A DNA stretch of 64,000 nt from Calditrichales bacterium MX18-03 (GTDB lineage: Bacteria > Bacillota > Clostridia > Lutisporales > Lutisporaceae): positions 1-64,000 of the forward strand of contig JAJGRE010000006.1 of the NCBI GenBank assembly GCA_021083345.1, read 5' to 3'. A program made the translations under genes and the position numbers. The stretch's first letter is position 1; every line of letters starts with the position of its first letter. Of the stretch, positions 26,652-38,078 are shown one piece after another. The notes under the pieces were generated by a model. It was not told the DNA's origin, searched no databases, and worked only from the letters and a program-made list of their open reading frames with translations.

Positions 26652-26670
26652 AAGCTTCGCTCCTTATTAA

Positions 26671-27127
26671 GTGCCAGGCACGCCTGTTAGCCGGTTATTA
26701 TTATATTATCATATTTATATATCAAATCCTTTATGGAACTTTCCTTTAACCCAATATTTTTCCCTATTTCTTTGTACGTATATTTATAGGATAACGCCAT
26801 TTTAATATAATTTAACTTGTATTCTGTCAGATTCCTCTACGGTAATGGTTATCCATCAATACATATCCAAAAACACGATCGTTCATAGCCTCCACATATT
26901 GCTTCCCCTGCTTCAAAAAATAACCCTTATCAATGTCCTCTTTGAAAACATATTCTTTGTTATTACCTCTGGCTATAACATGATAAATTCCGCCTTGGTA
27001 CTCCATCCGCCATGGTCTTCACATAAGAAATACCTCCTGTAATTATTTACCATATTTTACCATTTTGTGACAAGAATTTCAATCAACTGTGATAGAGCAA
27101 TAACCGGCTAACCGGCGTGCCTGGCAC
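26671..27127. mobile_element. Miniature inverted-repeat element with broken Y1 transposase
   Basis: A 457-bp unit bounded by 29-bp inverted repeats (26671-26699 and 27099-27127) with one mismatch; each begins with the near-palindrome GTGCCAGGCAC. The interior is AT-rich and carries the remains of a Y1-type transposase on the minus strand. It sits between the two-component system and a membrane-protein gene, 20 bases from the regulator start and against the neighbour's terminator. It is non-autonomous and would need a full transposase elsewhere. No clear target duplication was seen. Confidence 0.85.
26687..27024 (-). pseudogene. Remnant of a REP-associated/IS200-like (Y1) transposase
   Basis: Minus-strand reading from an ATG at 27022-27024 behind SD AGGAGGT gives the familiar start of Y1 transposases, but codon 2 is TGA. 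It continues RMEYQGGIYHVIARGNNKE, then DRVFGYVLMDNHY, the spot where the family's catalytic MxNHxH motif should complete, and breaks off a few codons later. After a large internal deletion another frame gives the family's C-terminal helix-turn-helix (SYKYTYKEIGKNIGLKESS). It has a nonsense codon and an incomplete active site, so it is not functional. Confidence 0.8.
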
Positions 27128-27129
27128 CT

Positions 27130-27152
27130 AAAAAAAAAGACGCCGAAGCGTC
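27130..27152 (-). terminator. Terminator after the LiaF-like gene
   Basis: GACGC-CGAA-GCGTC (27139-27152) followed on the minus strand by about nine T. It touches the right end of the miniature element. Confidence 0.85.
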
Positions 27153-27759: not shown

Positions 27760-27798
27760 AATGATAAATGTTAACATTTAATGTTAACATTTATCATT
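27760..27798. promoter_or_regulatory. 39-bp perfect palindromic operator before lipA
   Basis: Perfect 19-bp arms (27760-27778 and 27780-27798) around a single T contain two GTTAAC cores, 13 bp apart. The right arm covers the probable -35 of the lipA promoter, so a bound protein would block RNA polymerase. The binding factor is unknown; the DeoR or WYL regulators at the end of the cluster are candidates (inference). Confidence 0.75.
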
Positions 27799-27812
27799 AA
27801 ATATGTTATAAT
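27784..27812 (+). promoter_or_regulatory. Promoter of the lipA-E2-E3-E1 operon
   Basis: -35 TTAACA (27784-27789) and -10 TATAAT (27807-27812), spacer 17 bp. The -35 lies inside the palindrome at 27760-27798. Confidence 0.65.
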
Positions 27813-27857
27813 TAATCATAATGAAAAATCATGAAATCCTTGGAGCGTGAAGCAAGC

Positions 27858-28709
27858 ATGTACCAGCCAAAACCGGAGTGGTTGAAAATAAAAGCCCGCA
27901 GCAGCAGCATGACGGACGATGTGGCACAGCTGCTCAGCAGCCTTTCGCTGCATACCGTCTGCGAAGAAGCTAATTGTCCCAATCTGCTGGAGTGCTTTGG
28001 CAGAAGCACCGCGACTTTCATGATATTGGGCAGGGTATGCACGCGGAATTGCACCTTTTGCAATGTCAGTAAAGGGGTTGCCAAGCCGCCCGACCCCGAT
28101 GAGCCTGCCCATGTCGCTCAAGCTGTCGCAGCGCTTAAGCTAAGGCATGTAGTCATTACCTCGGCAACGCGGGATGACTTGGAAGACGGGGGAGCCGGAC
28201 ATTTTGCCCGGACCATAGAAGCCGTCCGCAGCGTAAACAGAAAAACAGTCATCGAAGTATTGATACCGGATTTCCAGGGCAGTACCGCCTCTTTGGAAAC
28301 AGTGGTGTCTGCCGCACCCCGTATTATCAACCATAATATCGAGACAGTGCCGGGCATGTATCCGGAGGTCCGCCCGATGGCCGTTTATGAAAGGTCTCTT
28401 GCACTTTTAGAGAAAGTAAAAGCAATCGACAGCAGCATGCTCACAAAGTCCGGCATCATGCTGGGGCTGGGAGAAACAGAACCGGAGGTGCTCGATGTAT
28501 TTTCGGATCTCAGGAAAGCCGGCTGCGACTTCCTGACGGCAGGACAATATCTGGCGCCGTCAAAGCAGCATCACCCGGTTGTTGAATATGTGCATCCCGA
28601 GGTTTTTGCCGGCTATAAAGAAAAAGCACTGGCTATGGGTTTCAGGCATGTGGCGGCTTCTCCCCTTGTCAGAAGCTCGTATATGGCGGATCAGGCAATT
28701 GAAAAGTAG
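27858..28709 (+). CDS. lipA: Lipoyl synthase
   Basis: LipA inserts two sulfurs into octanoyl groups bound to lipoyl domains. The auxiliary cluster cysteines are in [12 protein letters not shown], the radical SAM motif is CTRNCTFC, and the C-terminal RSSYMAD loop that binds the auxiliary cluster is present. About 283-292 residues, full length. The start is uncertain: ATG 27858 is 12 bases after GGAG, and ATG 27831 has no SD. It leads an operon whose next gene encodes the lipoyl-bearing E2, so it probably matures that protein. No octanoyl transferase or lipoate ligase is seen in the window. Confidence 0.95.
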
Positions 28710-28764
28710 GGTTTGTCATCGATCTTAATATAATATAAAACAAAAAGTAATTCAGGAGGTCATT

Positions 28765-30054
28765 ATGGCAACATCAGTTATTATGCCCAGGCAGGGCCAA
28801 TCAGTAGAAAGCTGTATCATTGCCAAATGGTACAAAAGGAAGGGAGAGCCGGTGCAAGCCGGTGAGCTTCTCTTCTCTTATGAGACAGACAAGGCAAGCT
28901 TTGATGAGGAAGCGAAGGTCAGCGGCGTCCTTCTCCAAGTCTTCTTTGCAGAAGGCGACGACGTTCCGTGCCTGACAACGGTCTGCATCATAGGCGACGC
29001 CGGAGAAAAGGTTGAGGATGCTTCCCCGCAGGTTCCGGCAGAAGCAACCGTACCCGCTGACGTCAAAGAGGGAGAGCGGATAAAAATATCTCCCAGGGCA
29101 AAGCACTATGCAGAGAAGGCCGGTGTCGATTACCGCTTTGCAGTTCCTACAGGCCCTCATGGCCGGGTCGTTGAAAAGGACATCGTGACACTTCAGGAGT
29201 CCGGATACATCATGACGCCTGCAGCAAAGGAAAGCTTCGCAGAGGCTGGAGCTGTCCATCCGCTCTTGGGCACAGGCTTGGGCGGAAGAATCACGACAGC
29301 CGATTTGAGCGTCAAAGCAGCTGAAATGCAAGCGACACCACTGATCCAATCTCAAGAACCACTTTATGAGGAAGTCAAGCTGACAAATATCCGAAAGGTC
29401 ATTGCAAAGGCAATGCATCATTCAATTTCTTCCACCTGCCAGCTTACATTGAACACCTCCTTTGATGCAACTGCCATCCTGGAATTCAGAAAGGGCCTGA
29501 AGGATAGCAAGGATAAGCTGGGTCTCGAGAACATCACCTTGAATGACATGATCCTTTTCGCTGTTTCCAGAACGCTTCAGAGCCACAAGGCGCTCAATGC
29601 GCACTTTATGGATGACCGGATGCTGTATTTCAAGAACGTCAACCTCGGTCTCGCTGTCGATACCGATAGAGGGCTGATGGTACCGGTCGTATTCAAGGCT
29701 GACCAAAAATCCTTGAACGGGATATCCAAGGAAGTCAAAGCACTAGCCAGGGAATGCCAGTCAGGTGCCGTCAATCCCGACCTGATGAAAAACGGCAGCT
29801 TTACCGTAACCAATCTGGGAACCCTGGGCATCGAAAGCTTTACACCCATTCTGAATCCGCCGCAGACCGGCATATTGGGCGTCAATACCATCTTCCAGAG
29901 AGCAAGGGAAAAAGACGGCGTCCTTGAGTTCTATCCGGCCATGGGCCTGTCTCTTACCTTTGACCATCGGGCATTGGACGGTGCCCCGGCAGCCAGGTTC
30001 CTGCAGGATCTGGTGACGAATCTGGAAAACTTCGGCGCTATGTTGGCCCTATAG
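28765..30054 (+). CDS. Dihydrolipoamide acyltransferase (E2) of a 2-oxoacid or acetoin dehydrogenase
   Basis: The 429-residue E2 core of a lipoate-dependent complex. Residues 1-80 are one lipoyl domain with the modified lysine in ETDKASF (Lys43). Two stretches then resemble E3-binding domains: one begins ISPRAKHYAEKAGV (about 110) and one MTPAAKESFAEAGA (about 150). Two such domains in tandem are unusual. The C-terminal catalytic domain carries DHRALDG. Acyl specificity (acetyl from pyruvate or from acetoin, or another acyl) cannot be read from the sequence. SD AGGAGG. It precedes E3 and the fused E1. Confidence 0.93.
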   Translation: MATSVIMPRQGQSVESCIIAKWYKRKGEPVQAGELLFSYETDKASFDEEAKVSGVLLQVFFAEGDDVPCLTTVCIIGDAGEKVEDASPQVPAEATVPADVKEGERIKISPRAKHYAEKAGVDYRFAVPTGPHGRVVEKDIVTLQESGYIMTPAAKESFAEAGAVHPLLGTGLGGRITTADLSVKAAEMQATPLIQSQEPLYEEVKLTNIRKVIAKAMHHSISSTCQLTLNTSFDATAILEFRKGLKDSKDKLGLENITLNDMILFAVSRTLQSHKALNAHFMDDRMLYFKNVNLGLAVDTDRGLMVPVVFKADQKSLNGISKEVKALARECQSGAVNPDLMKNGSFTVTNLGTLGIESFTPILNPPQTGILGVNTIFQRAREKDGVLEFYPAMGLSLTFDHRALDGAPAARFLQDLVTNLENFGAMLAL

Positions 30055-30064
30055 GTGAGGTGAG

Positions 30065-31435
30065 ATGATGATATATGATTTGATCATAATCGGCGGCGGA
30101 CCGGCCGGTTATCTTGCTGCAGAACGGGCCGGCCAGGCAGGGCTTAGTACGATGCTGATAGAGAAGCGATATGTTGGCGGTGTCTGCCTCAACGAGGGCT
30201 GCATCCCTTCAAAAGCCCTTTTATATTCTGCCAAGGTGTATGACAGTGCCAGGCATGGTGAAAAATACGGCGTCATCGCTGGTGATGTGCGGCTAAACCA
30301 CAGCGCCGTCATAGAACGGAAAAACAAGGTGGTCAAGACCCTTGTGTCCGGTATAAGAAGCAAGCTTAAAAAAAATATGGTAACGCTGGTAGAAGGCTTG
30401 GGCGAAATTGCAGGCAGAAGCAGCGAAGGCTATGAAGTAAAGGTCAACGGCGAAACCTATACAGGAAAGCGCCTTCTTATCGCTACCGGCTCCATGCCGG
30501 TGATCCCGCCTATACCTGGGGTGAAGGAAGGGCTTGAAAAGGGTTATGTGCTGACCAACCGGGAGATCCTGGACCTCAAGACTGTCCCTGCCTCCCTGGT
30601 GATCGTGGGCGGAGGCGTCATCGGACTTGAGATGGCCTCATACTATTGCTCTGCGGGCAGCAAGGTTACTGTCATCGAAATGCTTGACCATATCGCAGGT
30701 TATACCGACAGCGAGATCGGCGAAATCCTCTTGAGGCGCTACCAGAAAAAGGGCGTTGAATTCAAGCTGGGTGCCAAGGTGGTTGAAATCTGCGAAGGCT
30801 CGGTTGTATACCAAGCCGGTGGCCAGACCTCTATTGTGGAAGCGGAAAAGGTCCTCTTAAGCATCGGCCGCAAGCCGGTGGTAGAGGGTATCGGCCTTGA
30901 AAGGCTTGGCATTGAGCTGGAAAAGGGGCGCATTAAAGTGGACGGAAGGGGGAAGACCAATATCCCCGAAGTCTATGCAGCAGGCGACGTCAACGGCGAG
31001 TCCATGCTGGCCCATACCGCCTATCGCGAGGCTGAGGTCTGCATCAACAACATACTGGGCAAAAAGGACACCATGCGGTATAACGCCATCCCTTCGGTCA
31101 TCTATACCAACCCCGAGGTGGGCAGCGTCGGTGAGACGGAAGCTACGGCAAAACAGAAGGGGCTGGATTTTGAGACTGCAAAAATATCCATGCTGTACAG
31201 CGGCAGATATGTTGCAGAAAATGAGGACAGCGACGGAATCTGCAAGGTGCTGATCGATAAAAAGCATCGAAGGCTGATCGGCGTCCATTTGATAGGAAGC
31301 TATGCATCGGAAATCATTTACGGTGCAGCACTGATGATAGAGACAGAGATGCGGGTGAACGACATAAAAGAACTGGTCTTCCCCCATCCTACGGTATGTG
31401 AAATCATACGGGAAGCCCTTTTTGAATTGAAATGA
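30065..31435 (+). CDS. lpdA: Dihydrolipoamide dehydrogenase (E3)
   Basis: A 456-residue flavoprotein that reoxidises dihydrolipoamide with NAD+. FAD-binding GGGPAGYLAAERA (residues 9-21), the redox-active disulfide in GGVCLNEGCIPSKALL (Cys 41/46), NAD-binding GGGVIGLEMA, the second FAD motif VYAAGDVNG and the C-terminal HPT...E base are all present. It lies between E2 and E1. It has no fused lipoyl domain. Confidence 0.96.
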   Translation: MMIYDLIIIGGGPAGYLAAERAGQAGLSTMLIEKRYVGGVCLNEGCIPSKALLYSAKVYDSARHGEKYGVIAGDVRLNHSAVIERKNKVVKTLVSGIRSKLKKNMVTLVEGLGEIAGRSSEGYEVKVNGETYTGKRLLIATGSMPVIPPIPGVKEGLEKGYVLTNREILDLKTVPASLVIVGGGVIGLEMASYYCSAGSKVTVIEMLDHIAGYTDSEIGEILLRRYQKKGVEFKLGAKVVEICEGSVVYQAGGQTSIVEAEKVLLSIGRKPVVEGIGLERLGIELEKGRIKVDGRGKTNIPEVYAAGDVNGESMLAHTAYREAEVCINNILGKKDTMRYNAIPSVIYTNPEVGSVGETEATAKQKGLDFETAKISMLYSGRYVAENEDSDGICKVLIDKKHRRLIGVHLIGSYASEIIYGAALMIETEMRVNDIKELVFPHPTVCEIIREALFELK

Positions 31436-31458
31436 ATAGAAAGGTGAGGGAATAATAT

Positions 31459-33930
31459 ATGCCAAAATCACAATTCATCAACCCCAGCGACGTTAGAAAA
31501 AGCGGCTGGATTAAATTTGACGATATCCCTGTTAATCAGTACAATAGGAGTATAGAAGAAGAAAAAGGCTGTTTCAGTACAGCGGATTTTCTGAGAATCT
31601 ACCGGGATATGGCCATCATCCGCGAGTTTGAGACCATGCTCAATCTGATCAAGACCACCAATGAGTACAACGGCATACAGTACAACCATCCCGGTCCGGC
31701 GCACCTGTCCCTGGGGCAGGAGGCCTCAGCGGTGGGGCAGGCTTATCTGCTCGACAAGGATGATTATATTTTCGGGTCCCACAGAAGCCATGGGGAGATT
31801 CTGGCCAAGGGGCTGTCTGCTATTGAGAAGCTCACTGAAAAAGAGCTGACGGAGATCATGGAGAATTACTTCGACGGTGCCATTCTAAGAGTTGTTGAAG
31901 GAAAACAGAAGAACAAGAATGATATCCGGGAACTGGCCGTAGACTTTCTGGTCTATGGCACCCTCGCCGAGATTTTTGCGCGGGAGACCGGCTTCCACAA
32001 AGGGCTTGGCGGTTCCATGCATGCATTCTTCACACCCTTCGGCATTTATCCCAACAATGCCATCGTAGGCGGTTCAGGCGATATCGCAGTAGGCGCGGCC
32101 CTTTACAAAAAGGTCAACCGGAAGAAGGGCATCGTCATAGCCAACATCGGAGATGCATCCATGGGCTGCGGTCCGGTTTGGGAAGGCCTCTGTATGGCGG
32201 CAATGGACCAGTACAAGCAGCTTTGGGAAGGTGAATACAAGGGCGGTCTGCCGTTCATCCTCAATTTCTTCAACAACCAGTACGGCATGGGCGGACAAAC
32301 CTGCGGTGAGACAATGGGCTACAACATGCTCGCCCGGATCGGCGCCGGCGTCAACCCTGAGCAAATGCACGCAGAAAGAGTGGACGGCTACAATCCGCTG
32401 GCCGTTATTGATGCCATGAGACGCAAGCGGGTCATACTTGAGGAAAAACGCGGGCCGGTCCTTCTGGATACCCTTACTTACAGGTTTACCGGCCATTCTC
32501 CTTCCGACGCCTCCAGCTACAGGACCAAAGAGGAAATCGAAGCCTGGATGCAGCATGACTCACTGATCAGCTACAAGGATGCCTTGATCAAAGCTCAGGT
32601 AGCAAAGGATGAGAGCTTCGCAGAAATCCTTGAGAACACCCGGGAGCTGATAACGAAGATCTGCCGCCTGGCTACCGATGATACGGTCTCGCCAAGGATG
32701 AACCTGGTCATGAATCCGAACCAGATCGGGGATCTGATGTTCTCCAATGCCAGAGTCGAAAAGATGGAAGAGCGCGATTGCGATGTGCTGATGCCGAAAG
32801 AAGAAAACCCAAGGGTACAGCAGATCAGCAAGAAGATAAGATTGGGCACACAGGATGGAAAGCCGGTTTCCAAGAATAAGGCGTATCAGTTCAGAGATGC
32901 TGTCTTTGAGGCACTGATCGACAAGTTCTACACCGATCCTACACTGATTGCTTACGGTGAGGAAAACAGGGACTGGGGCGGCGCATTTGCCGTATACAGA
33001 GGCCTCACGGAAGCACTCCCGTACCACAGGCTTTTCAACTCACCCATTTCGGAAGGTGCCATTGTGGGCTCCGCCGTAGGCTACGGCATGTGCGGCGGCA
33101 GAGTCGTGGTGGAACTGATGTACTGCGATTTTCTTGGAAGATCCGGTGACGAAATCTTCAACCAGCTCTCCAAATGGCAGGCCATGAGTGCCGGTGTATT
33201 AAAAATGCCGGTTGTGGTTAGAGTATCGGTAGGCTCCAAGTATGGCGCACAGCACTCTCAGGATTGGACCTCGCTCTGTGCACACATTCCGGGCCTGAAG
33301 GTGGTATTCCCTGCAACACCCTATGATGCGAAGGGATTGATGAACAGTGCTCTGATGGGCACCGATCCCGTCATATTCTTTGAAAGCCAGCGCCTCTACG
33401 ATATGGGTGAGCTGTTCCGCTCCGACGGTGTGCCGGAAGGCTATTACGAGGTTCCCATCGGAGAACCGGAAGTGAAAAAAGAAGGGAAAGACATCACCCT
33501 TCTGACCATTGGCGCAACCTTGTACCGCGCCTTGGATGCAGCGAAGATCCTGGAGGAACGCTATGGCCTGTCTGCAGAAATCATTGACGCTAGGACCATC
33601 GTCCCCTTTAACTATGAGAAAGTCATCGAGTCAGTCAAAAAGACAGGTAAAATACTCCTGGCCAGTGATGCCTGCGAGAGAGGCTCCCATTTGAAGGACA
33701 TGGCCCAGACCATCAGCGAGCTTGCATTTGATTATCTGGATGCACCGCCTGTTGTCGTAGGGGCAAAAAATTGGATCACGCCGGCCTATGAATTGGAAGA
33801 GTACTTCTTCCCGCAGCCCGATTGGCTCATCGATGCCATCCATGAAAAGATCATGCCGCTTAAGGGGCATGCAGCAAAAAACAACTTTACGGCAAATGAG
33901 CAGCTACGCACAAACAAGCTGGGAGTTTAA
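31459..33930 (+). CDS. Fused alpha-beta E1 of a thiamine-dependent dehydrogenase
   Basis: An 823-residue E1 in which alpha and beta chains, usually separate, are joined. Residues about 50-420 are the alpha part with the TPP motif (GDASMGCGP, then FFNNQ about 30 residues later). Residues about 465-800 are the beta part, starting [15 protein letters not shown], with [13 protein letters not shown] and DARTIVPFN. It decarboxylates a 2-oxoacid, or cleaves a ketol such as acetoin, and passes the acyl group to E2 lipoate. It is followed by a split transketolase and a DeoR regulator, so a sugar-derived substrate is possible (inference). Confidence 0.9.
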
Positions 33931-33958
33931 TCATACAAAATGAGAAAGGAAGAACTGA

Positions 33959-34804
33959 ATGAGCAACGAAAAAATCAACCAATTGGCCATAACCGCAACA
34001 AAAATCCGAAAGCATGCTCTGGACGCTGTCTATCATGCTGCATCGGGGCATCCCGGCGGCTCCCTATCCATTGCGGATATCCTGTCCGTTCTGTATTTCG
34101 ATGTCATGAATGTGGATGCCAATAACCCTCACGACGAAAACCGGGATAGATTTGTACTGTCAAAGGGCCATTGTTCGCCGGGCTTGTACGGTGCTTTGGC
34201 TGAAAAGGGCTATTTCCCCAAAGAGGACGTCAAAAATTTCCGTAAGATTGACAGCTACCTGCAGGGGCATCCCGACATGAAGGGCGTTCCGGGTGTTGAC
34301 ATGTCAACGGGTTCTTTGGGGCAGGGGATATCTGCCGCAAACGGCATGGCGCTGACCGCCAAACTGTATGAAAAGGATTTCCGGGTATACGCCGTATTGG
34401 GCGACGGAGAGCTGCAGGAGGGTCAGGTATGGGAAGCAGCCATGTTCGCTGCCCATTACAAGCTGGATAACCTCATTGCCTTTGTAGATTTCAACGGCCT
34501 TCAGATCGATGGAGATATTGCCAAGGTCATGTCGCCGCTGCCCATTGACGAAAAGTTCAAAGCCTTCGGCTGGAATGTCATTGTGATTGATGGCCATAAT
34601 TATCAACAGATCATGGATGCCATAGCAAGTGCCAAGGAAACAAAGGGAAAGCCGTCGCTGATCATGGCCAAAACAGTCAAGGGCAAGGGTGTTTCCTTCA
34701 TGGAAAATGAGGCCGGCTGGCACGGCAGTGCGCCCAACAAAGAGCAGTATGAGCAGGCAATATCGGAATTGGATGCATTGCTTTCCAAGTTGGAGGTGGA
34801 ATAA
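33959..34804 (+). CDS. Transketolase, N-terminal subunit
   Basis: The TPP-binding half (281 residues) of a two-gene transketolase. DAVYHAASGHPGGSLS, DRFVLSKGH, STGSLGQGIS and GDGELQEGQVWEA are all characteristic. It joins with the next gene to form an active enzyme that moves two-carbon units between sugar phosphates. SD AAAGGAAG. It follows the fused E1 by about 30 bases. Confidence 0.95.
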   Translation: MSNEKINQLAITATKIRKHALDAVYHAASGHPGGSLSIADILSVLYFDVMNVDANNPHDENRDRFVLSKGHCSPGLYGALAEKGYFPKEDVKNFRKIDSYLQGHPDMKGVPGVDMSTGSLGQGISAANGMALTAKLYEKDFRVYAVLGDGELQEGQVWEAAMFAAHYKLDNLIAFVDFNGLQIDGDIAKVMSPLPIDEKFKAFGWNVIVIDGHNYQQIMDAIASAKETKGKPSLIMAKTVKGKGVSFMENEAGWHGSAPNKEQYEQAISELDALLSKLEVE

Positions 34805-35743
34805 ATGGCGGATAAAATAGCAACAAGAGAAGCTTATGGTATGGCGCTGGCAGAATTCGGCGACAAGTACGATATCGTGGTTTTGGATGCGGATCTTTCA
34901 AAGTCCACCAAGACAGAAACCTATAAGAAGAAGTTCCCCAATAAGTTTATCAATATGGGTATTGCGGAAGGCAATATGATGTCAACGGCAGCCGGAATTG
35001 CAACCTGCGGAAAAGTTGTATTTGCCAGCTCCTTTGCGATGTTTGCCGCAGGCAGAGCCTTTGAGCAGATCAGAAACTCCATCGGATATCCAGGCCTGAA
35101 TGTCAAGATAGGTGCTACCCACGCCGGCCTGTCCGTAGGGGAAGACGGCGCATCCCATCAGTGCATTGAGGATATCAGCATCATGAGGACCATCCCGGGA
35201 ATGGTTGTGATTAGTCCGGCAGATGCCGTTGAAACACGGTGTGCGGTTGAAGCTGCTATCAAACATAAGGGTCCGGTCTATCTCAGGCTCGGCAGGCTCT
35301 CAGTTCCCGTATTGTATGATGCCGCAACCTATCAGTTCGAATTGGGCAAGGGCATTCAGATTTCTGACGGCACCGATGCAACCATCATCGCAAACGGCCT
35401 GATGGTCCATGAAGCCGTTGCAGCAAAGCAGCTGCTTGACAAAGAAGGCATCAGCGTCAGGGTCATCGACATCCATACCATAAAGCCCATCGATAAAGAC
35501 ATCATCATAAAAGCCGCAAAAGAGACCGGCGCCATCGTAACGGCTGAAGAGCACAATGTCATCGGCGGACTTGGAAGCGCCGTTGCCGAAGTTTTGGTAG
35601 AAAACTGCCCGGTTCCGATGAAGAGAGTCGGCGTGGAGGATAAGTTTGGCAAGTCCGGCAAGCCCGAGGCATTGTTGCGGGAATACGGTCTCACTGCAGA
35701 AAATATAGCCGGTAAGGTAAAAGAAATCATCAAAATGAAATAA
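34805..35743 (+). CDS. Transketolase, C-terminal subunit
   Basis: The second half (312 residues). ATREAYGMAL opens the protein; MGIAEGNMMSTAAGIA, THAGLSVGEDGASHQ and AEEHNVIGGLGSAVAEV are typical of the Pyr and C-terminal transketolase domains. The ATG follows the partner's TAA directly, with SD GGAGGTGG, so translation is coupled. It may serve the ordinary pentose phosphate pathway or a specialised keto-sugar route; split forms of both kinds exist. Confidence 0.95.
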   Translation: MADKIATREAYGMALAEFGDKYDIVVLDADLSKSTKTETYKKKFPNKFINMGIAEGNMMSTAAGIATCGKVVFASSFAMFAAGRAFEQIRNSIGYPGLNVKIGATHAGLSVGEDGASHQCIEDISIMRTIPGMVVISPADAVETRCAVEAAIKHKGPVYLRLGRLSVPVLYDAATYQFELGKGIQISDGTDATIIANGLMVHEAVAAKQLLDKEGISVRVIDIHTIKPIDKDIIIKAAKETGAIVTAEEHNVIGGLGSAVAEVLVENCPVPMKRVGVEDKFGKSGKPEALLREYGLTAENIAGKVKEIIKMK

Positions 35744-35770
35744 ACAGGTTGGAGCTTGGAGCGTGATTCT

Positions 35771-36535
35771 GTGATCAATGACAGACAGCAGCAGATATTG
35801 CACATATTGGAGAAAAAGGGCGAAGTACATTTGCAGCAAATCAAGGATGTATTTCCTGATGTCTCCATGATGACCCTCAGGCGGGATCTGATTAACCTGG
35901 AGAACGAGGGTCTGCTGATCAGGACCCATGGCGGTGCGGTAAACGCCAAAAAGCTGAATGCCGTCAGCGGAGAAGAGGATGCCTATTCCAGAAGGGCTTC
36001 GGAAAACGTTGAGGCAAAGCTGAAGATGGCAGAAAAAGCAGCAGCGCTTGTGGAGGAAGGGCGCTCCATCTACTTTGATGCCGGTACGTCTATCATGTGT
36101 CTGGCCAGGCTGCTGTCAGACGGGAATTTTTCCATCTTGACCTGCGGCACCAATATTGCCCTGGAGCTAGTTAAGAAACCTGATATCTCTGTCGTAACCC
36201 TAGGGGGCCTTGTGAACCGCAACACTTTATCGGTTTCAGGCCCAGGGGCCATGACCTTTCTGGATGCCGTCAACATTGACATTGCTTTTATGTCCGCATC
36301 GGGATTTTCGGTAGATAACGGCTTTACCGTATCCAACATATATGAATGCGAGCTGAAGCGAAAAGTCGTCAGCCGCGCCCAGAAAGTGATTCTGTTGGTA
36401 GATTCCGGCAAGCTGAACAAGGTTCTGCCATTCACCTTCGCTCATTTAAAGGATATTGACGCCTGGGTCGTTGAACGGCAGCTGCCTGATGCGATTGAGG
36501 CCGACTGCAAAAAGTACGGCGTTGAAGTGTTATGA
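35771..36535 (+). CDS. DeoR family transcriptional regulator
   Basis: About 254 residues: N-terminal DeoR helix-turn-helix (NDRQQQILHILEKKG, MMTLRRDLINLENEG), then the sugar-phosphate-binding DeoRC domain (FDAGTS near 107, LTCGTNIALEL, GGLVNRNTLSVSGP). Such proteins usually repress a sugar pathway and release DNA when a phosphorylated sugar binds. GTG at 35771 is favoured (GGAG nine bases upstream); TTG at 35756 is possible. It lies at the end of the E2/E3/E1/transketolase run and overlaps the WYL gene by four bases. Confidence 0.92.
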   Translation: MINDRQQQILHILEKKGEVHLQQIKDVFPDVSMMTLRRDLINLENEGLLIRTHGGAVNAKKLNAVSGEEDAYSRRASENVEAKLKMAEKAAALVEEGRSIYFDAGTSIMCLARLLSDGNFSILTCGTNIALELVKKPDISVVTLGGLVNRNTLSVSGPGAMTFLDAVNIDIAFMSASGFSVDNGFTVSNIYECELKRKVVSRAQKVILLVDSGKLNKVLPFTFAHLKDIDAWVVERQLPDAIEADCKKYGVEVL

Positions 36536-37470
36536 AGAAATCAGAACGATTACAATTGATTATTATGCTATTAAAGCAAAAAGGGAAACAATCTGCATCC
36601 GATCTGGCAAAGTACCTTGAAGTCAGTCCTCGAACAATTTATCGTGATATTGATGCATTGAGTCAGATGCAAGTTCCCATTACCTCTCATGAAGGGATCA
36701 ATGGCGGGTATGAAGTTGCTGAGACATACTTCATGCCTGCTTTACATCTCTCTGAACGTGAAGTGCTTGTTTTGAAGCTATTGCTGAAGGTTTCCGGTCA
36801 ACTGAACCTTCCTGATTTCAGTGAAAACGTGAATGCCCTGAATTTGAAGCTGCATCATGCATGCCAGGACTTGGCCATGCAATTTGAAAAGATGCTTCAG
36901 TATGTCACAGTTGATATTCAGCATATTTTCCCAAAGCCGCATCTTCAAGGCGCTTTTGAGACAATCCTTGAAGCCTTTGACCGCCAAATCAATTTGAGGA
37001 TTCATTATTATTCGCCATTAAAAAACAGTGTCAGAGAACGCGTTATATCTCCTCTGCATTTGTTTTTTTATGAAGGCGGCTGGTATTTGGATGCTTACTG
37101 TCATATCAGAGCACAGAAAAGAACCTTTCGCTTAGATAGAATTCAGTCTGTCGATTTATTATCTGATATGCCCAACGATGAACTGAGTAACCAATGCAAC
37201 GGCATGGTTTCAGATGATCAATGGCAGCTTCTCGAATTTGACATTGATAAGAATTTATACAGTCTGGTCAAAGACGACAGCCCCTTGAAAAATGCCGACA
37301 TCGTTTCAGAAAACAGTACTTGCTATAGGGTACATGTCAGAACCAACCGCCTTGTTTATTTTGAGACATTAGCTATCCGGAACATTAATCAAATCACGAT
37401 ACTGGAACCACAGCCTTTCGTCCAGGAACTCAGAAAAAAATTTCTGACTGCTATACAAAAATATCAATAA
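36532..37470 (+). CDS. WYL-domain (YafY-like) transcriptional regulator
   Basis: A 312-residue regulator: N-terminal helix-turn-helix (KQSASDLAKYLEVSPRTIYRDI) and a WYL domain (about 140-215; YYSPLKNSVRERVISPLHL, GGWYLDAYCH, FRLDRI). WYL regulators bind nucleic acid or nucleotide ligands. It overlaps the DeoR stop (ATGA) and has a poor SD, so translation is probably coupled. It and the next gene are visibly richer in A+T than the upstream operon, which may mean separate origin. Confidence 0.9.
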   Translation: MKKSERLQLIIMLLKQKGKQSASDLAKYLEVSPRTIYRDIDALSQMQVPITSHEGINGGYEVAETYFMPALHLSEREVLVLKLLLKVSGQLNLPDFSENVNALNLKLHHACQDLAMQFEKMLQYVTVDIQHIFPKPHLQGAFETILEAFDRQINLRIHYYSPLKNSVRERVISPLHLFFYEGGWYLDAYCHIRAQKRTFRLDRIQSVDLLSDMPNDELSNQCNGMVSDDQWQLLEFDIDKNLYSLVKDDSPLKNADIVSENSTCYRVHVRTNRLVYFETLAIRNINQITILEPQPFVQELRKKFLTAIQKYQ

Positions 37471-37500
37471 ACGCTGACAGGTATATGTCAGCGTTTATTT
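37469..37500 (+). terminator. Terminator after the WYL regulator
   Basis: AAACGCTGACA (37469-37479) pairs with TGTCAGCGTTT (37486-37496), then ATTTG. It overlaps the WYL stop codon and ends the long operon. Confidence 0.75.
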
Positions 37501-37526
37501 GCTATGCTGATCCTGGAGGTGTTAGA

Positions 37527-38078
37527 ATGAACGTGGCAGTCTATTTGTACGATGGCTACTTTGAAACTGAGCTTTGTATCCCCACCATGCTGTTTGCCAA
37601 AGAAAACCTTTTTACTCTGGCAAGCAATCAGGAAATTGTGAAATGCATGGATGGGAGAAGGCTTCTGGTTGATCGGATGGTAAGCGAAGTAAAACCTGAG
37701 GAAATCGATGTTCTGATTATTCCAGGAGGTAAGCCCATTCCACAAGAAGATATTCTGGATTTGATCAGAGCTTGCGAGAGACGAAATGCCATTATTGGCG
37801 GCATCTGCGGCGGAGTCGATTATCTTGCATATGCAGGCATTCTTGAAAATCGCAGGTTTACCAGCTATTATCAGCTTGATAAGCATTACGACCACTTGCC
37901 TGTATCAGGAGAAATGACCGGCAGTATGTATGAAAGCGATCAGAATGTCATATCCGCCAAACCCGAGGCTTATCTGGAATTTGCCTTGGAGCTGGTCCGC
38001 CTGGCAGGATTATTAAAATCGGAAGCGATCAGCAATTATGTTGAATGGTTCAAAAGTCCAAAAACTTTTAAGTATTAA
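37527..38078 (+). CDS. DJ-1/PfpI family protein
   Basis: A 183-residue cytoplasmic protein of the DJ-1/PfpI superfamily. The start MNVAVYLYDGYFETEL includes the conserved glutamate, and the nucleophile elbow is GGICGGVDYLA (Cys near residue 104). Members act as glyoxalases/deglycases, chaperones or transcription factors; the role here is open. SD GGAGGTG fixes the ATG at 37527. It lies after a terminator but within 60 bases of the WYL gene. Confidence 0.88.
   Translation: MNVAVYLYDGYFETELCIPTMLFAKENLFTLASNQEIVKCMDGRRLLVDRMVSEVKPEEIDVLIIPGGKPIPQEDILDLIRACERRNAIIGGICGGVDYLAYAGILENRRFTSYYQLDKHYDHLPVSGEMTGSMYESDQNVISAKPEAYLEFALELVRLAGLLKSEAISNYVEWFKSPKTFKY

Follow-up and report, generated by a model that had tools for sequence, protein, structure and literature searches.

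A 39-bp palindrome at a lipA promoter as part of a putative three-site operator for a DeoR-family repressor

The perfect 39-bp palindrome upstream of lipA in Calditrichales bacterium MX18-03 very probably contains the first two of the three sites in an operator for an autoregulated DeoR-family repressor, the gene for which is the seventh of the operon, with the promoter being occluded until an inducer is available. The identity, copy number and spacing of the sites, their co-occurrence with the DeoR protein, and their overlap with the promoter were established computationally.

The palindrome (AATGATAAATGTTAACATT T AATGTTAACATTTATCATT) is an inverted repeat of 19+1+19 bp, in which the two arms (27760-27778 and 27780-27798) are 100% complementary and separated by 1 nt. 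It contains two AATGTTAACATTT repeats (starting at 27767 and 27780), with 7 bp between the GTTAAC cores. A preliminary description of this DNA had reported a perfect palindrome of 39 bp with 19-bp arms, placed it over the -35 of the lipA promoter, and considered a chance origin very unlikely; all three claims hold. The longest arms arising by chance in thirty order-3 Markov windows (1.92 Mb) were 13, and approximately 0.01 palindromes of this size would be expected per 4.69 Mb, even at 20% GC. No second perfect palindrome with arms of >8 nt was found elsewhere in the window (the whole stretch of DNA analyzed, 64 kb). The same description had proposed a genome search for paired sites; in pattern searches, the architecture, as the exact pair ATGTTAACAT-N3-ATGTTAACAT, occurs once in the 4.69-Mb genome. 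Allowing 3 mismatches recovered two additional places, which we treated as chance because a reversed-pattern control also yielded one. A search of phage DNA returned no match.

The unit of this element is not, as had been proposed, a pair of GTTAAC cores. Across 80 related loci (gathered with the fused E1 protein as query, with flanks of up to 10 kb), neither GTTAAC-N7-GTTAAC nor TGTTAACA is conserved in that form, and no GTTAAC pair is retained. The failure of this search led to a comparison of the 16+7+16 layout, and then to a 15-bp dyad, TGWTA-N5-TAWCA, which emerges as conserved from comparison with the 80 loci and repeats with a period of 20-22 bp. Loci L045 and L047 carry AATGATAGAATCTAAC-N7-GTTAGAWTCTATCATT directly upstream of E2, in the same 16+7+16 layout as the window but with different inner bases; L060 has a single TGTTAGAATCTAACA in the corresponding position directly upstream of E2. 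The 39-bp palindrome is therefore best read, at the level of sequence, as two of three evenly spaced dyad sites, the two GTTAAC cores being a by-product of the N5 segments, each of which happens to read AATGT or ACATT. A register centered on GTTAAC was rejected (-17.5 bits on the matrix described below). Firmicute BirA operators typically contain GTTAAC half-sites, so that a GTTAAC-reading regulator such as the biotin repressor BirA could be envisaged as binding the pair; however, BirA half-sites are 14-16 bp apart and the cores here are separated by 7 bp, GTTAAC is absent from the nearest relative sites (ATTAAC stands in its place in L032) and from the neighboring site in L151, and a literature search on a BirA-type reading gave nothing on point, which makes this reading highly improbable.

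A matrix was constructed from 39 sites found in relatives, excluding the window. In a scan of the 64 kb, the highest-scoring single site was O3, with the caveat that it overlaps a TATAAT-type -10 that itself resembles half a site; O1 and O2 were among the next three. The chain O1-O2-O3 scores 38.0 bits; the runner-up in the real window reaches 12.2, and 40 simulated windows gave no score above 14.3. O1 matches a site of L032 (TGATAAATATTAACA) at 14/15 bases, and the O2 15-mer is identical to a site upstream of E2 in the relative G193 (L151). The preliminary description had missed the third site, O3. Three-site arrays are also present in L032, L035, L052, L070, L107, L151, and L157 (feature coordinates are given in Table 1).

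Table 1. Coordinates of the palindrome, candidate operator sites, promoter elements and genes of the lipA operon region.
Feature	Position	Strand	Basis or remark
39-bp perfect inverted repeat	27760..27798	.	Covers operator sites O1 and O2
Putative operator site O1, TGATAAATGTTAACA	27762..27776	.	Matrix built without the window
Putative operator site O2, TGTTAACATTTATCA	27782..27796	.	Matrix built without the window; -35 inside
-35 hexamer TTAACA	27784..27789	+	Promoter reading; inside palindrome and O2
Putative operator site O3, TGTTATAATTAATCA	27804..27818	.	Matrix scan; coincides with extended -10
Extended -10, TGT-TATAAT	27804..27812	+	Promoter reading; within O3
lipA, lipoyl synthase	27831..28709	+	TIGR00510, 373 bits
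E2 acyltransferase (lipoyl, E3-binding and catalytic domains)	28765..30054	+	Domain search
E3 dihydrolipoyl dehydrogenase	30065..31435	+	TIGR01350
Fused E1 alpha-beta 2-oxoacid dehydrogenase	31459..33930	+	Domain search
Transketolase N-terminal half	33959..34804	+	Domain search
Transketolase C-terminal half	34805..35743	+	Domain search
DeoR-family repressor, proposed ligand of O1-O3	35756..36535	+	HTH_DeoR and DeoRC, co-occurrence, helix comparison
WYL-domain regulator	36532..37470	+	Domain search; not conserved with operon or sites
DJ-1/PfpI family protein, last gene of the run	37485..38078	+	Domain search

The promoter reads TTAACA-17-TATAAT with an extended -10 TG (27784-27812), with transcription predicted to start near 27819, downstream of the palindrome. 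Of 28 arrays, 17 have the -10 placed within a site at offset +3 (TGT-TATAAT within TGTTA-N5-TAACA), a descriptive figure given that the promoter search segment included the sites. In most relatives the site holding the -10 is the first, with the array running downstream, whereas in the window it is the last. Based on sequence reading and alignment to the family model, translation of lipA probably begins at ATG 27858 (GGAG at 27842) rather than at the first ATG, 27831. Being upstream of the predicted start, the palindrome would be outside the lipA mRNA, and this bears on the proposal that it acts as RNA or as a cruciform, in the manner of a terminator or attenuator. The 106-nt region does fold well as RNA (-23 kcal/mol, z -4.3), and on the minus strand the palindrome is followed by T-rich sequence; however, an 18-pair stem with just 3 G-C pairs, on the minus strand only, falls short of an intrinsic terminator, no likely minus-strand gene ends at the palindrome, an Rfam search of the region gave no match, and relatives retain the sites without a long hairpin. 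We regard such a role as scarcely credible.

The identity of the regulator is indicated by co-occurrence. DeoR orthologues (39% identity or more) are encoded in many of the E1 loci, where deoR either closes the operon or precedes it, and tandem arrays of at least 20 bits were detected in 22 of the 28 E1-cluster loci with an orthologue versus 0 of the 30 without one (p = 6.7e-11), with a spacing of 20, 21 or 22 bp across loci. In loci with deoR upstream of the operon (L061, L066, L071, L089, L091, and L093), it is deoR that the array precedes. The remaining 6 of the 28 lack a scoring array; four of these (L051, L054, L058, and L060) have one strong TGTTAGAATCTAACA with a degenerate neighbor. 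In L036-L039 there is only a distant DeoR (helix VTEETIRRDL), and no array. Because the matrix training set overlaps in part with the loci of the 22/28 count, the independent test comes from DeoR-bearing loci sampled separately from whole genomes, among which the arrays of twelve more contigs outside the training set exceeded the shuffled maximum of 20.0; several orthologue-bearing loci of this sample (e.g., L167, L168, L170, and L179) have no array. One of the twelve, L154, has DeoR beside unfused E1 genes, with the sites preceding E3; at the equivalent position L159 carries a single site. The motif thus follows DeoR and not the E2 gene.

Next to the DeoR orthologues of L154 and L159 (52-56%) are E1 alpha/beta dehydrogenase clusters of the unfused type; the association of the regulator therefore extends beyond fused E1 to lipoate-dependent complexes more generally. 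At a diverged orthologue locus (L165, 7185-7221, on a contig shared with L046), TGTTCGATACGAACA-type dyads have the same 22-bp spacing, which suggests that operator sequence has shifted within this subfamily.

The preliminary description had put forward both the DeoR and the WYL protein as candidate regulators; the co-occurrence (22/28 versus 0/30) gives strong support to the former. The WYL-domain protein is encoded by a gene that overlaps the end of deoR, and possesses an HTH_11 domain, both of which would suit a regulator binding the palindrome. However, no WYL homologue is encoded in any of the related loci, even though sites and DeoR are both present there, and without such co-conservation of regulator and site we consider binding by this protein very unlikely.

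The cluster DeoR is, by both defining domains, a member of the DeoR family: the N-terminal HTH_DeoR domain (PF08220) matches at 7e-17 (61.3 bits versus a cut-off of 21) and the C-terminal DeoRC domain (PF00455) at 6e-43 (147 bits versus 31.8). As judged from sequence, the promoter of the regulator's own operon likewise carries a dyad-type or repeated operator. It passes no equivalog cut-off. The score against the NCBIfam DeoR equivalog PRK10681 is 102 bits versus a cut-off of 244, and the closest full-length NCBIfam models are GlpR_Halo (169 bits), AgaR (150), and SrlR (118), all so far below their curated cut-offs that the protein belongs to none of them. Its recognition helix (VSMMTLRRDL) matches that of E. 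coli DeoR (VSEMTIRRDL). Three further DeoRC proteins are encoded in the genome, any of which could in principle use the site; however, the two paralogue helices that were read (VTEETIRRDL and VTEVTIRRDL; the third paralogue is L120) are generic, and co-occurrence with the motif was shown for the cluster DeoR only, so that use of the site by a paralogue is extremely improbable.

The operators of E. coli DeoR work by looping, and those of GlpR and AgaR are also multiple. With GlpR, AgaR, and SrlR, the cluster DeoR shares its closest full-length models, yet at scores below the curated cut-offs. With E. coli DeoR, it shares the HTH_DeoR and DeoRC family architecture, a nearly identical SxMTxRRDL helix, more than one operator per target, and TGTTA/TAACA half-sites, which are common to the window sites and the pair of sites preceding deoC in E. 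coli (TGTTAGAATTCTAACA and TGTTAGAATACTAACA; NC_000913.3). The E. coli-type 16-bp operator TGTTAGAATTCTAACA is not found here: in E. coli, sites of 16 bp (N6) are separated by 599 bp, whereas the window sites are 15 bp (TGWTA-N5-TAWCA) and repeat every 20-22 bp. The targets also differ, being deoxynucleoside catabolism in E. coli and a 2-oxoacid dehydrogenase operon here. RhaR, AxgR and other predicted local regulators of the DeoR family are described, in excerpts of two comparative-genomics studies, as likewise having repeated operators over promoters, deduced by the kind of approach used here (PMC3870299, PMC8579813), although the RhaR motifs given there are direct repeats with a 10-11 bp period and other sequences than here. 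In Caldicellulosiruptor, according to an excerpt of PMC8579813, mapped transcription starts show that DeoR-family sites overlap promoters or lie within 5' UTRs, a placement that its authors read as repression. The excerpts of both papers make no mention of the present motif or operon, and the literature searched contained no description of this combination of motif, spacing and operon. Found beside the orthologous repressor in many other Clostridia, the array is an ordinary kind of control element.

The perfect symmetry is a separate matter from the sites. The nearest complete relative, G193 (L151), has a DeoR 67% and an E1 87% identical to those of the window, and carries AATGATAAATGTTAACATTTAA, a 22-bp exact match to the left portion of the palindrome, beyond which lies a different second site; no palindrome is formed. 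As the left part is kept without its mirror image, conservation applies to the sites, whereas the perfect 39-bp symmetry is local to this genome. Template-switch correction of a quasi-palindrome is one way in which it might have originated. The fused-E1 cluster with its DeoR (27831-36535) has no close match in the other same-family genomes searched; its nearest relatives (G193, 87%; L032, 88%) are outside the family or differently classified. The cluster was likely acquired horizontally. We tentatively raise the broader possibility, which we hold to be somewhat doubtful, that a DeoR subfamily, class-wide and so far undescribed, governs operons for lipoate-dependent 2-oxoacid dehydrogenases by means of an operator that is fused with the extended -10 (TGT-TATAAT in TGTTA-N5-TAACA) and repeated at intervals of two turns, the palindrome here perhaps resulting from template-switch (quasipalindrome) correction after horizontal acquisition of the cluster.

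Upstream of the promoter region, a 43-nt inverted pair (26664-27134; 86%) with the ends TGCCAGGCACGCC..GTTAGCCGGTTATT encloses 385 bp. Its approximately 32-bp end is found again elsewhere in the genome, in several locations and for the most part as closely spaced inverted pairs (e.g., C12:108770-108838 and C8:1135277-1135345), and the repeat resembles REP/REPIN elements.

For the operator itself, we infer physical binding, cooperativity, repression, and a response to an inducer, as follows. Sites placed every 20-22 bp, or two helical turns, would all be on the same face of the DNA, so that they could be filled cooperatively. Repressor bound at O2, over the -35, and at O3, over the extended -10, would exclude RNA polymerase. 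An inducer, by analogy with other DeoR proteins probably a sugar phosphate, would bind the C-terminal domain and cause the repressor to leave, allowing transcription of lipA-E2-E3-E1-transketolase-deoR. With deoR inside the regulated operon, the repressor would limit its own supply.

In relatives (L061, L064, L089, and L091), genes near the operon encode a Zn alcohol dehydrogenase-like protein, a sorbitol-6-phosphate-dehydrogenase-like SDR, and a lipoate ligase; L089 also has a rhamnulokinase-like gene nearby. The SDR, Zn alcohol dehydrogenase-like and lipoate ligase neighbors are consistent with a sugar-phosphate signal, without identifying it.

These findings assign a candidate site and regulator to a poorly characterized 2-oxoacid dehydrogenase operon of many Clostridia MAGs, and convert an unexplained palindrome into a directly testable putative operator, with a dyad motif that can be used for further searches. 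The functional unit would be the repeated dyad, and not the visually striking palindrome. The inducer of the regulator would, in turn, point to the sugar on which the operon acts.
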